From Candidatus Latescibacterota bacterium (GTDB lineage Bacteria > Latescibacterota > UBA2968), in NCBI GenBank assembly GCA_021295695.1, contig JAGWBW010000001.1, positions 8,164 through 72,163 on the forward strand: a stretch of DNA of 64,000 nucleotides. Direction: 5' to 3'. The notes beneath the pieces are model-generated. The model made no database searches. It had not been told where the DNA came from and worked only from the letters and a program-made list of their open reading frames with translations. Shown here in pieces: positions 12,746-15,667 of the stretch. The translations under genes and the position numbers were made by a program. Each line of letters begins with the position of its first letter. Within the stretch, counting starts at the first letter, position 1.

Positions 12746-14236
12746 ATGTCCGCTACAGTTCAAGTCGGAAGTCGGAAGCAGCTTTTCATCGACGCGCGTT
12801 TCTTTGATCGGGCCTCCGGCGTCAACCTCCGTATGAATCCGCCTTTGCAGTCCCCCGAGCCGGTGCTCCGGGCGGATAAGCCGTGGGAGAAGCTCGGGAT
12901 TGGGGGGTACAATACGGTGATCCGGGAAGGGGATCGGCACTTCCGGCTCTGGTATGGCGCACAGATGAAATCGGGCGGTCCGCAGGAAGGAGCGGTTCGC
13001 CTCTGCTATGCAGAGTCCGAAGACGGGGTCTCCTGGCAGAAGCCGGAAATGCACCTCGTCCCGTTCCAGGGTAGCACCGCCAACAACATCGTCGCCCCGC
13101 TGGATGAGCGCCAGAGCATGCAGGGCGCGACGGTCTATATAGACGAACGCGCGCCCGCCGATTCGCGCTACCGGCTCTGGTCGAAGTACCAGCCCGGGAA
13201 TGATGAGATCGAGGCCGGTGTTCAGCCGGGGCTTTGGGCTATGCATTCACCCGACGGGATCCATTGGACGTATGATGAGGGCCAGCCGAATCCGCCCAAT
13301 CAGATGTGCGATACCCAGAATGTTTTCTTCTGGGATGACAGCCTGGATCTCTACGTCGGCTATACGCGGGTACACGAGACCCAGCGACGGGACGAGGCGG
13401 CGGAAATGAAGCTCGGAAAGCGGTACCGGTCCGTTGGCCGGATCACGTCGCCCGACTTCAAGACCTGGTCACAGCCTACGCTGATCGTCCTGGAAGGGGA
13501 TGCGCTGGACCTGGAAGCACCTCTGCCTCCCCGGTCGATGGACAGGCCGCAGGTCGATTACTACACGAACGCGGTCTATAAGCATCCCGAGGCGGATGAT
13601 GCGTACTTCATGATGCCCGCCGCTTACTACCACTGGGAAGCGTCCGATTTCCCGGCCACGATGGACGTCCAGCTCCTCACGAGCCGTGACGGGGTCATAT
13701 GGTCGCGTCAGGGAGACCGGGAGCCGTTCATCCGCCGGGGGCTGGATGGGGGGCCATCGGGTGGCATGGTGATGGCCAATGTCTGGCCCGTGCTTACCGA
13801 GACCGAGATGTGGATCTACTATTCGGGCCGGGGAAGTCGGCACAATGATGAGGTGCGTGACGGTTGGAATACCGGTCTGTTCCGGGCGATCTTGAGGCGA
13901 GACGGTTTCGTCTCGGCGGATGCGTCTCTCTCTGGCGGAGAGTTTGTGACACCGCCGCTGGCGTTCGACGGTCAGGCGCTCGAGCTGAATGTAGATTGTG
14001 GCGGGGGCGGCTGGCTGCTGGTCGAACTGCAGGACGAGGAGGGGCGCCCCGTGGAAGGCTACACGCTGAAGACGTGCGAGACGATTGTCGCCAATGCAAT
14101 TAAGGCAGGCGTGTCGTGGCAGGGGGCTGGCCGCCGGATCCCCACGGATCGGGGACCGCTGCGGCTTCGCATCGTGATGCGGTCGGCAAAGCTCTACTCG
14201 TTCCGGTTCGTGCGGGAAGAAGATCAAACAGCTTGA
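12746..14236 (+). CDS. Beta-propeller glycosidase-like protein, probably acquired
   Basis: A 496-residue protein. Repeated F/YRLWY, YAESEDGVSWQKPE, MHSPDGIHWTYDEG, SPDFKTWSQP and TSRDGVIWSRQGD strands are typical of five-bladed beta-propeller glycosidases (GH32/43/130-like), where an S-x-D-G-x-x-W strand recurs in each blade. A C-terminal beta-sandwich (residues ~405-490: LELNVDCGGGGWLLVELQDEEGRPVEG) fits this. Family and substrate are not established. AGGAAGGAG precedes the ATG at 12746; the frame is open into the previous gene. Codons are strikingly C/G-ending compared with both neighbours, and direct repeats flank the gene, so horizontal insertion is likely. Its last residues (EEDQTA) appear to be supplied by the right repeat. 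Confidence 0.7.
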   Translation: MSATVQVGSRKQLFIDARFFDRASGVNLRMNPPLQSPEPVLRADKPWEKLGIGGYNTVIREGDRHFRLWYGAQMKSGGPQEGAVRLCYAESEDGVSWQKPEMHLVPFQGSTANNIVAPLDERQSMQGATVYIDERAPADSRYRLWSKYQPGNDEIEAGVQPGLWAMHSPDGIHWTYDEGQPNPPNQMCDTQNVFFWDDSLDLYVGYTRVHETQRRDEAAEMKLGKRYRSVGRITSPDFKTWSQPTLIVLEGDALDLEAPLPPRSMDRPQVDYYTNAVYKHPEADDAYFMMPAAYYHWEASDFPATMDVQLLTSRDGVIWSRQGDREPFIRRGLDGGPSGGMVMANVWPVLTETEMWIYYSGRGSRHNDEVRDGWNTGLFRAILRRDGFVSADASLSGGEFVTPPLAFDGQALELNVDCGGGGWLLVELQDEEGRPVEGYTLKTCETIVANAIKAGVSWQGAGRRIPTDRGPLRLRIVMRSAKLYSFRFVREEDQTA

Positions 14237-14238
14237 CA
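14217..14238. repeat. Right copy of a 22-bp direct repeat
   Basis: Second copy of the sequence at 12691-12712, one mismatch. It encodes the end of the propeller gene and contains the -35 hexamer of the trpS leader promoter. Confidence 0.85.
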
Positions 14239-14261
14239 CAAGTTGTTGAAGTCGTTATTTT
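14233..14261 (+). promoter_or_regulatory. Sigma-70 promoter of the trpS leader
   Basis: TTGACA (14233-14238), a 17-base spacer, then TATTTT (14256-14261). Transcription would begin near 14268, just before the leader-peptide ribosome-binding site. The -35 overlaps the stop codon of the preceding gene. Confidence 0.7.
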
Positions 14262-14289
14262 CATCGGCGATATATCACGGGAGTTTGTT

Positions 14290-14403
14290 ATGATTATGCA
14301 CGATCACATTTTGGCTGATGCGACGCCCAATAGGGTGCTGGCTCTCCGTGTGTCCAAGACTGTCCGCGGTTGGTGGTGGCGTGCCATTGTGTGGGTTTGC
14401 TGA
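14290..14403 (+). CDS. Tryptophan-codon leader peptide of trpS
   Basis: A 37-codon ORF, MIMHDHILADATPNRVLALR followed by VSKTVRGWWWRAIVWVC. GGGAG (14279-14283) is well spaced for the ATG at 14290. Three consecutive TGG codons (14371-14379) and a fourth (14392-14394) lie just ahead of the stop at 14401. This is the organisation of Trp attenuation leader peptides such as TrpL, whose core in E. coli is KGWWRTS. A terminator follows 31 bases after the stop and tryptophanyl-tRNA synthetase lies downstream. Ribosome stalling at the Trp codons when charged tRNA-Trp is scarce would favour read-through. The peptide probably has no function beyond being translated. Inferred from layout; no homologue was searched. 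Confidence 0.75.
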   Translation: MIMHDHILADATPNRVLALRVSKTVRGWWWRAIVWVC

Positions 14404-14465
14404 CGGATTGTATTTATTTGAAAATTCTGAATTGACCGCCGTCGGCTTTTTGACGGCGGTTTTTT
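14399..14465 (+). terminator. First trpS attenuator: terminator with competing antiterminator
   Basis: Terminator: ACCGCCGTC (14435-14443), 8-base loop, GACGGCGGT (14452-14460), then a T6 run. Alternative: GCTGACGG (14399-14406, overlapping the leader stop) can pair with CCGTCGGC (14439-14446), eight pairs including one G-U, which removes the left arm of the terminator. Confidence 0.75.
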
Positions 14466-14531
14466 GTGGTAGGTATGCGATGTTTTTGATTGCAATGACA
14501 GAGCTATTTAATAGTGGCGGACGCTGGTGGT

Positions 14532-14624
14532 CGGTAGGCGCAATGGGAGATGTATGTCCACCACCGGATATTTGGCGATCTTTATTTGCAACGCGCGCTA
14601 CCGGAAGGTGGCGCGTTTTTTTTT
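14532..14624 (+). terminator. Second trpS attenuator: terminator with competing antiterminator
   Basis: Terminator: AACGCGC...ACC (14590-14602), GGAA loop, GGTGGCGCGTT (14607-14617) and a T9 run to 14624, ending 44 bases before trpS. Alternative: CGGTAGGCGC (14532-14541) can pair with GCGC (14593-14596) and CTACCG (14598-14603), ten pairs around one bulge. TGG-TGG (14525-14530) lies just upstream in an ORF with no stop before the terminator, and can also pair with CCACCA (14558-14563). Confidence 0.6.
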
Positions 14625-14668
14625 GTGAAAAATGTGGATTTTAAATAGCTATAGAAAGGATATTAGAC

Positions 14669-15667
14669 ATGAGTCGCACAATTGTTTTAACAGGTGATCG
14701 CCCAACGGGCAGAATGCATTTGGGGCATTATGTTGGGTCGTTGGAGAATCGATTTGAGATGCAGGATGAGTTTCAGTGTTTTTTTATGATTGCCGATTAT
14801 CAGGCGCTGACGACGCATCGGGATCGGACAGAGGATTTGGAGCATCACGTCAGAGAAATGGTGCTGGATTATCTGGCGGCGGGTTTTGATCCCGAAAAAA
14901 GCGTTTGTTTTTTGCAATCACAGGTGGCACAACTGGCAGAGTTGACCATGATTTTTTCCAATTTGGTGACGTTGCCGCGTTTGTTGCGGAATCCAACAGT
15001 TAAGGAGGAAATGGGTAAGATGGGGTTGGGGAATCGGGTGCCTTACGGTTTTGTGGGGTATCCGGTGTCTCAGGCGGCGGATATTTTGCTTTTTCGTCCG
15101 CGATATGTGCCGGTGGGTCCAGATCAAAAACCCCATATTGAATTGGCACAGGAAGTGGCTGCGCGATTTAATCGGATTTATGGCGAGGTGTTTCCCATTC
15201 CCGATGGCGTTTATGGCACGCGCTTGAAGGGCACGGATGGTCAGAGCAAGATGGGGAAGAGTTATGGCAATGCCATTGATTTGTCGGATAGAGAAGCGTC
15301 TGTGCGGGCAAAGGTGATGAATATGGTTACCGATCCGGGGCGGGTGCGGGCAACTGATCCGGGAGATCCCGATGTGTGTTCGGCATTTCACTATCGAGAG
15401 GTGTTCGATGAAGAGAATGTCGAGCAGGTGGCAAAGGCATGTCGCGGTGGGACGGTTGGCTGTACGACCTGTAAAGGCGCGTTGGCAGATGTGCTGAACG
15501 ATTTTATGACGCCGTTTCGGGTACGCCGCAGGGGTTTTGAAGAAAAGCCCGATTTGGTGCGCGATATTTTGAATCTGGGCGGTTCGAGGGCGCGTATTGA
15601 AGGACAACGCACGCTGGAGTATGTCAAGGAAGTGATGGGAATGGGGTATAAGTCGTTGATGGAATAA
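14669..15667 (+). CDS. trpS: Tryptophanyl-tRNA synthetase
   Basis: A 332-residue class I aminoacyl-tRNA synthetase, the usual length for bacterial TrpRS. It charges tRNA-Trp with tryptophan in the cytoplasm. The HIGH signature appears as HLGH (residues 17-20, within PTGRMHLGHYVGS) and KMSKS as KMGKS (about 194-198, within DGQSKMGKSYGNAI). Typical TrpRS segments include FMIADYQALT, PVGPDQKPHIELAQE and VGCTTCKGALAD. AAAGGA precedes the ATG. It stands alone after a 400-base leader holding a Trp-rich leader peptide and two terminators, so its expression is probably set by tryptophanyl-tRNA supply. The gene converges on the GNAT gene, five bases away, with no terminator visible. Confidence 0.95.
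   Translation: MSRTIVLTGDRPTGRMHLGHYVGSLENRFEMQDEFQCFFMIADYQALTTHRDRTEDLEHHVREMVLDYLAAGFDPEKSVCFLQSQVAQLAELTMIFSNLVTLPRLLRNPTVKEEMGKMGLGNRVPYGFVGYPVSQAADILLFRPRYVPVGPDQKPHIELAQEVAARFNRIYGEVFPIPDGVYGTRLKGTDGQSKMGKSYGNAIDLSDREASVRAKVMNMVTDPGRVRATDPGDPDVCSAFHYREVFDEENVEQVAKACRGGTVGCTTCKGALADVLNDFMTPFRVRRRGFEEKPDLVRDILNLGGSRARIEGQRTLEYVKEVMGMGYKSLME

Follow-up and report, generated by a model that had tools for sequence, protein, structure and literature searches.

The window analyzed here is a stretch of 64,000 nucleotides from an uncultured marine Latescibacterota bacterium whose genome comprises 5.33 Mb in 415 contigs. It contains trpS2, the second of two tryptophanyl-tRNA synthetase (TrpRS) genes in this genome, preceded by two consecutive leader units (Table 1). 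The trpS2 product is a full TrpRS that scored 270.9 bits against TIGR00233. The other copy (G000:C103) outscores it on this model (308.1 vs 270.5 bits). In a sequence search, the nearest solved structure to TrpRS2 was 2A4M, TrpRS II. TrpRS2 also carries cysteines in the arrangement C-x20-C-x6-C-x2-C, which are absent from the other TrpRS (L001). This arrangement presumably resembles that of the iron-sulfur TrpRS from Thermotoga maritima (2G36), and 2G36 was the third match in the same structure search.

Table 1. Predicted features of the trpS2 leader region and the gene downstream (positions in the window).
Feature	Position	Strand	Basis or remark
Sigma-70-type promoter, TTGACA-N17-TATTTT	14233-14261	+	same hexamers and spacing in relatives of the genus
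Shine-Dalgarno of leader 1, GGGAG	14279-14283	+	sequence; kept in alignment
Leader ORF 1, 37 aa	14290-14403	+	ATG 14290; Trp codons 14371-14379 and 14392-14394
Antiterminator 1, 14399-14406 with 14439-14446	14399-14446	+	98.6% of cells paired
Terminator 1 with T-tract	14434-14466	+	hairpin 14434-14461, -19.0 kcal/mol
Leader ORF 2, 54 aa, MFLIAMTELFNSGGRWWSVGAMGDVCPPPDIW...	14480-14644	+	passes through terminator 2
Helix A:B, Trp codons (14525-14530 and neighbours) with Pro codons CCACCACCGG (14558-14567)	14524-14567	+	-14.7 kcal/mol
Candidate antiterminator 2, 14532-14541 with 14593-14603	14532-14603	+	-19.1 kcal/mol
Terminator 2, GCGCGCTACC-GGAA-GGTGGCGCGT, with T-tract	14593-14624	+	94.3% of cells paired
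trpS2, second tryptophanyl-tRNA synthetase	14669-15667	+	332 aa; HLGH and KMGKS motifs; TIGR00233; 2A4M

Unit 1 (14233-14466) comprises a promoter, a ribosome site, a leader, an antiterminator, and a terminator. A preliminary description of this DNA had pointed out the promoter, a leader ORF with GGGAG and a WWW...W run before its stop, and a terminator with a competing antiterminator, and we found each of these to be present. The promoter counterpart in L011, which belongs to another genus, is TTGACA-N17-TATTCT. The predicted leader 1 peptide, MIMHDHILADATPNRVLALRVSKTVRGWWWRAIVWVC, contains WWW plus a further W and ends at a TGA codon (14401-14403). The Trp run and the stop are kept in 11 genomes from two genera, the window included (L003-L009, L011-L014), with GGGAG or a similar sequence upstream of the ORF across the 11; the antiterminator pairing described next likewise recurs in the ten relatives. 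The segment GCUGACGG, which overlaps the leader 1 stop, pairs over 8 bp (-15.6 kcal/mol) with CCGUCGGC, a segment within the 5' arm of terminator 1. We folded transcripts ending before the 3' arm, with ribosomes represented as masks. Whether the RNA was free of ribosomes or carried one at the Trp codons, antiterminator 1 formed with P of about 0.6-0.75 in most copies and was weaker in L009 and L011 (P 0.2-0.4). Masking in a ribosome at the leader 1 stop codon largely abolished this pairing. In these folds, the antiterminator competes with the intrinsic terminator and is precluded once a ribosome occupies the stop codon.

The alignment of relatives held no two-sided pair changes in antiterminator 1, so covariation alone proves little for this helix; the pair at alignment columns 7-56 is UG, UA, or CG across copies. 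The folding of unit 1 does not stand out from shuffles (z 0.01), and the numbers of promoters (1 against 0.8 in shuffled sequence) and of terminators in both units (2 against 1.1) are within chance. Conservation across relatives, with leader 1 kept in 11 genomes and unit 2 in 18, is what lifts the arrangement clear of chance. We infer that unit 1 is a classical Trp attenuator, the logic of which is well supported.

The preliminary description had placed a single leader peptide ahead of two terminators. Both terminators stand, but a second leader ORF that runs through terminator 2 had been overlooked. Conservation in relatives had been set beforehand as the check, and both leader peptides and both terminators proved to be conserved. 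Unit 2 (14480-14624) is more than a bare terminator, and the roughly 140 bases 3' of terminator 1 that constitute it are conserved better than unit 1. The predicted leader 2 has its start codon at 14480, Trp codons at 14525-14530, and Pro codons at 14558-14566. It takes the form x-WW(W)-(8-9 aa)-PPP-D, with V/I/L followed by C/Y/R/W immediately before PPP; G015 deviates, reading WPTPG (PTP for PPP). The first Trp and first Pro codons lie 33 nt apart in g2, g3, and the genus of the window; all other copies have a distance of 30 nt. Between the start and the Pro codons, the Trp frame contains no in-frame stops in 15 of 15 modules, compared with a per-module mean of approximately 2.1 in one alternative frame and 1.1 in the second.

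In a classical attenuator, the leader stop codon lies upstream of the terminator, and unit 2 lacks such a stop in the 17 copies. In 16 of them the frame stays open past the U-tract, and the stop in G015 lies inside the 3' arm. The leader 2 ORF ends just upstream of trpS2, overlaps it, or is fused to it (L006). Stops are scarce in all frames past the Pro codons, so their absence from leader 2 is no proof of selection. That PPP shares the frame of WWW may go back to a single chance event in an ancestor.

We examined the helices of unit 2 by alignment and folding. The fold of the unit gave a z-score of -2.2 against shuffles. Helix A:B, which joins the Trp codons to the Pro codons, is paired in 87.5% of cells across 16 sequences. 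It shows no two-sided changes, and its pairing is confounded with the TGG/CCA codon content in register. Terminator 2 consists of a hairpin at 14593-14616 (-18.9 kcal/mol) followed by a T-run. Five pairs in unit 2 changed on both sides (1 of 500 shuffles), all of them in terminator 2, and the covariation score of this terminator exceeds all 500 shuffles.

The preliminary description had also drawn a helix competing with terminator 2, and this pairing is real in the window. The candidate antiterminator 2 is about as strong there as the terminator (-19.1 vs -18.9 kcal/mol) and would be able to form before the terminator 3' arm is made. When a ribosome stalled on the first Trp codon was masked in, the terminator 2 5' arm paired with the spacer in 10 of 15 modules (P 0.28-0.84). 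Under the same mask, it paired with other upstream sequence in L010, L011, and L015, and showed hardly any pairing in L012 and L014; antiterminator 2 itself is weak in these five copies. The spacer/arm duplexes of unit 2 are stronger within than across lineages (p=0.0024), and a comparison with shuffled spacers, lineages combined, was not significant (p=0.27). In window-type sequences, the footprint of a ribosome on the first Trp codon takes in part of antiterminator 2. Terminator 2 dominates at equilibrium under nearly every mask, so a switch in unit 2 must be kinetic. The modelled antiterminator 2 helix is partly supported: it is credible for the window and its close relatives, and its generality is unproven.

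Other candidate switches in unit 2 were rejected. Pairing of CCACCACCGG with the terminator 2 3' arm (-13.7 kcal/mol) is a poor main switch because that arm is the last to be transcribed and folds with nearby sequence first; the CCGG part of the pairing is also lost in L015, G019, G017, and G004. A helix joining sequence 3' of the Pro codons to the terminator 2 5' arm was inconsistent across copies, and a further start codon in the loop, following GGGAG, is missing in L010. TnaC-like arrest by free Trp was dismissed because the spacing of W, D, and P in the leader does not fit that of TnaC.

We searched for unit 2 in 64 genomes of the phylum with a covariance model. It is present in 15 of 15 genomes in the window's family and 3 of 6 in the sister family, and the carriers are genomes with a second, TrpRS-2-type gene. 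Unit 2 lies directly upstream of all 17 TrpRS-2-type genes in the phylum, across the two families; in an eighteenth genome (G012), a contig end interrupts the locus. We found no clear copy of a TrpRS-2-type gene in the phylum without unit 2. In L010, L015, G004, and the f2 paralogues, unit 2 stands directly before the gene, leader 1 is not adjacent, and the Trp codons are kept in all. The relatives with the element are public Candidatus Latescibacterota MAGs (e.g., OX638329, OY282377, JAJEDY01, and JABIFK01). PBWH01 is labelled Gemmatimonadetes, and genome classification placed it in the same family.

When 84,980 species were scanned with a sequence pattern, the motif accompanied by a T-run occurred only in this group and always before trpS. 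The scan gave 76 matches in all. Those outside the family lack a T-run and were set aside as chance; they are mostly one recurring 104-nt stretch in Rhodobacteraceae. Weaker covariance-model matches elsewhere are chance-like hairpins, with the exception of L139. At L139:567-690, in another family of the class, a classical Trp leader (MNFLLHTRRWWCAWYSPSQERGASIR, then a stop) and a terminator precede an apparent trpE. No WW leader was found within 1.5 kb of trpE in the window's family, apart from chance ORFs in L149.

T-box riboswitches are a common form of control for tRNA synthetase genes, including trpS in Firmicutes, and the preliminary description made this comparison. A synthetase gene is likewise the target here, but the host is a member of Latescibacterota, trpS2 shares its genome with another trpS, and Trp leader ORFs occupy the leader instead. 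Rfam at gathering score, T-box included, gave no match. A hit to GcvB (E 6e-4, below gathering) was rejected as fortuitous, reflecting a hairpin followed by a T-run.

We propose that trpS2 is under two serial ribosome-mediated transcription attenuators, both reading the supply of Trp-tRNA, and we judge this arrangement likely. Expression would probably come on when tryptophan-charged tRNA is scarce. Double attenuation in response to tryptophanyl-tRNA charging had been suggested from the outset and is supported as the best reading. The anatomy, the conservation, the terminator covariation, and the strict linkage to the trpS2 type are established; we infer the response to starvation, the direction in which unit 2 would act, and a role for PPP. 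With ample Trp-tRNA, a ribosome at the stop of leader 1 would cover 14399-14406 and terminator 1 would form. With a ribosome stalled at WWW, the stop-codon segment would pair with the terminator 1 5' arm and transcription would continue. A second ribosome would start at 14480. Without a ribosome there, the Trp codons of leader 2 would pair with CCACCACCGG. A stall on these Trp codons would free the spacer to pair with the terminator 2 5' arm before the 3' arm is made, allowing transcription into trpS2. With ample Trp-tRNA, the ribosome would reach the Pro codons and break the spacer pairing, and terminator 2 would form.

Because no stop codon lies upstream of terminator 2, slow peptide-bond formation at PPP(D) may stand in for the stop codon of unit 1. 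A more specific version of this idea, which is tentative and rather unlikely, holds that a programmed poly-proline pause replaces the stop codon in unit 2 and that the Trp and Pro codons are complementary halves of one helix, such that a ribosome held at Trp means on and one held at Pro means off. If this were true, trpS2 would answer to EF-P or Pro-tRNA besides Trp-tRNA. Poly-proline placed before a terminator inside a reading frame raises termination when EF-P is missing (PMC5021804).

The same findings could be explained by a coupling gate in unit 2 like that of pyrBI, with unit 1 as the Trp attenuator. A close ribosome would prevent termination, a stall at WWW or PPP would uncouple it and cause termination, and starvation would close unit 2. 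The absence of a stop before the U-tract in nearly all copies and the ends of the ORF near or over trpS2, or its fusion to that gene, are consistent with such a gate, as is the finding that PPPPPP before the pyrL terminator raised termination without EF-P (PMC5021804). In addition, masking the Pro-codon region left the Trp-codon segment free to pair with the terminator 2 5' arm in most f1 copies. However, the two units would then oppose each other, and Trp codons would be a poor choice for the stall. The missing stops are weak evidence given how few occur downstream in any frame, and ribosomes do little to suppress terminators within about 100 bp of the start (PMC4824070). We consider a gate of this kind unlikely.

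A structured RNA with a ligand, protein, or tRNA as its binding partner, and with an ORF that is incidental, is a very unlikely account of unit 2. The strong conservation of the Trp/Pro segment and the loop would suit such an RNA, as would the z-score of the fold. The start codon, the open frame, and the 3n spacing are also conserved, though, helix A:B is built of TGG and CCA codons in register, and the Rfam search yielded no family. The simplest proposal is that leader 1 alone regulates the gene, with terminator 2 acting as a plain terminator whose partial effect keeps the basal level down. Unit 1 is a complete attenuator by itself, and the minimal version of the preliminary description amounts to this proposal. 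The copies in which unit 2 directly precedes the gene with leader 1 not adjacent, together with the conservation of a Trp-containing leader 2 in all copies, make it highly improbable.

We compared the proposed tandem attenuators to known systems. Leader-peptide attenuation had been described at the outset as usually a matter of trp biosynthesis. The trpRS1 gene of Streptomyces coelicolor is also preceded by an attenuator. Attenuators were predicted before trpS2 of Streptomyces avermitilis (PMC1262725), which provides a trpS precedent. The units described here share a short leader ORF, tandem Trp codons, and a terminator with a mutually exclusive antiterminator, a candidate one in unit 2, with the trp-type attenuator of Escherichia coli, and they share trpS as the target gene with those of Streptomyces. 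They differ in that two occur in series before one gene and in another phylum. In unit 2, moreover, the stop codon is not before the terminator and the Trp codons pair with the leader's own Pro codons. The Salmonella mgtCBR leader contains tandem ORFs, mgtM and mgtP, the second of which has three consecutive Pro codons (PMC3641672). The resemblance lies in two leader ORFs per leader RNA and three Pro codons in the second, but mgtM and mgtP read ATP and proline, and both leaders here carry Trp codons. Like unit 2, pyrBI of E. coli has a terminator inside its leader ORF (PMC5021804, PMC4824070), but pyrBI senses UTP through RNA polymerase pausing, and unit 2 has Trp codons and alternative helices. 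Leader-peptide control of trpS and tandem leader-ORF attenuators are already known from Streptomyces and Salmonella mgtCBR, respectively; the new elements are the serial arrangement of two Trp leaders and, in unit 2, a stop-less design that combines Trp codons with Pro codons. The proposed control would extend attenuation by leader peptides at an aminoacyl-tRNA synthetase gene to an uncultured phylum, and the design of unit 2 raises the question of whether pausing at Pro-Pro-Pro could mark the "plentiful" state for an attenuator.

The sister family offers a possible origin for the tandem. There, a classical Trp leader (MMAALCGNSGSWWWHDFNRTGRLNAC, then a stop, and variants) with a terminator and a good promoter precedes trpS1 (L033, L035, L036, L037). 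The gene order in three sister-family genomes is hemB, attenuator 1, trpS1, unit 2, and a trpS2-like gene. In the window's family, trpS1 sits elsewhere, and no WW leader was found in the copies checked. Leader 1 of L011 aligns with the sister-family trpS1 attenuator (score 59 vs a best of 34 in 200 shuffles); leader 1 of the window gave no clear alignment (35 against 33). The sister-family order points to departure of trpS1 from the operon as the probable event that set the two attenuators next to each other. Loss of a gene between two attenuators would be a plausible path to tandem regulators.

Unit 2 also precedes truncated, apparently inactive TrpRS paralogues. The trpS2 genes of L012, L013, and L014 (G008, G007, and G006) have an in-frame loss of about 83 residues that includes the KMSKS loop. 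These shortened genes remain behind both leaders, and dN/dS among the three is 0.05-0.08. The TrpRS paralogues behind unit 2 in L114, L115, and L116 (G019, G017, and G015) have lost KMSKS, and their HIGH motif is lost or altered (HRGH in G019); the C-terminal helix is conserved. dN/dS between two of them is 0.38. They are possibly non-catalytic proteins with another role. A trpS2 copy behind unit 2 in L117 (G004:C47) contains three in-frame TAG codons and is probably a pseudogene.
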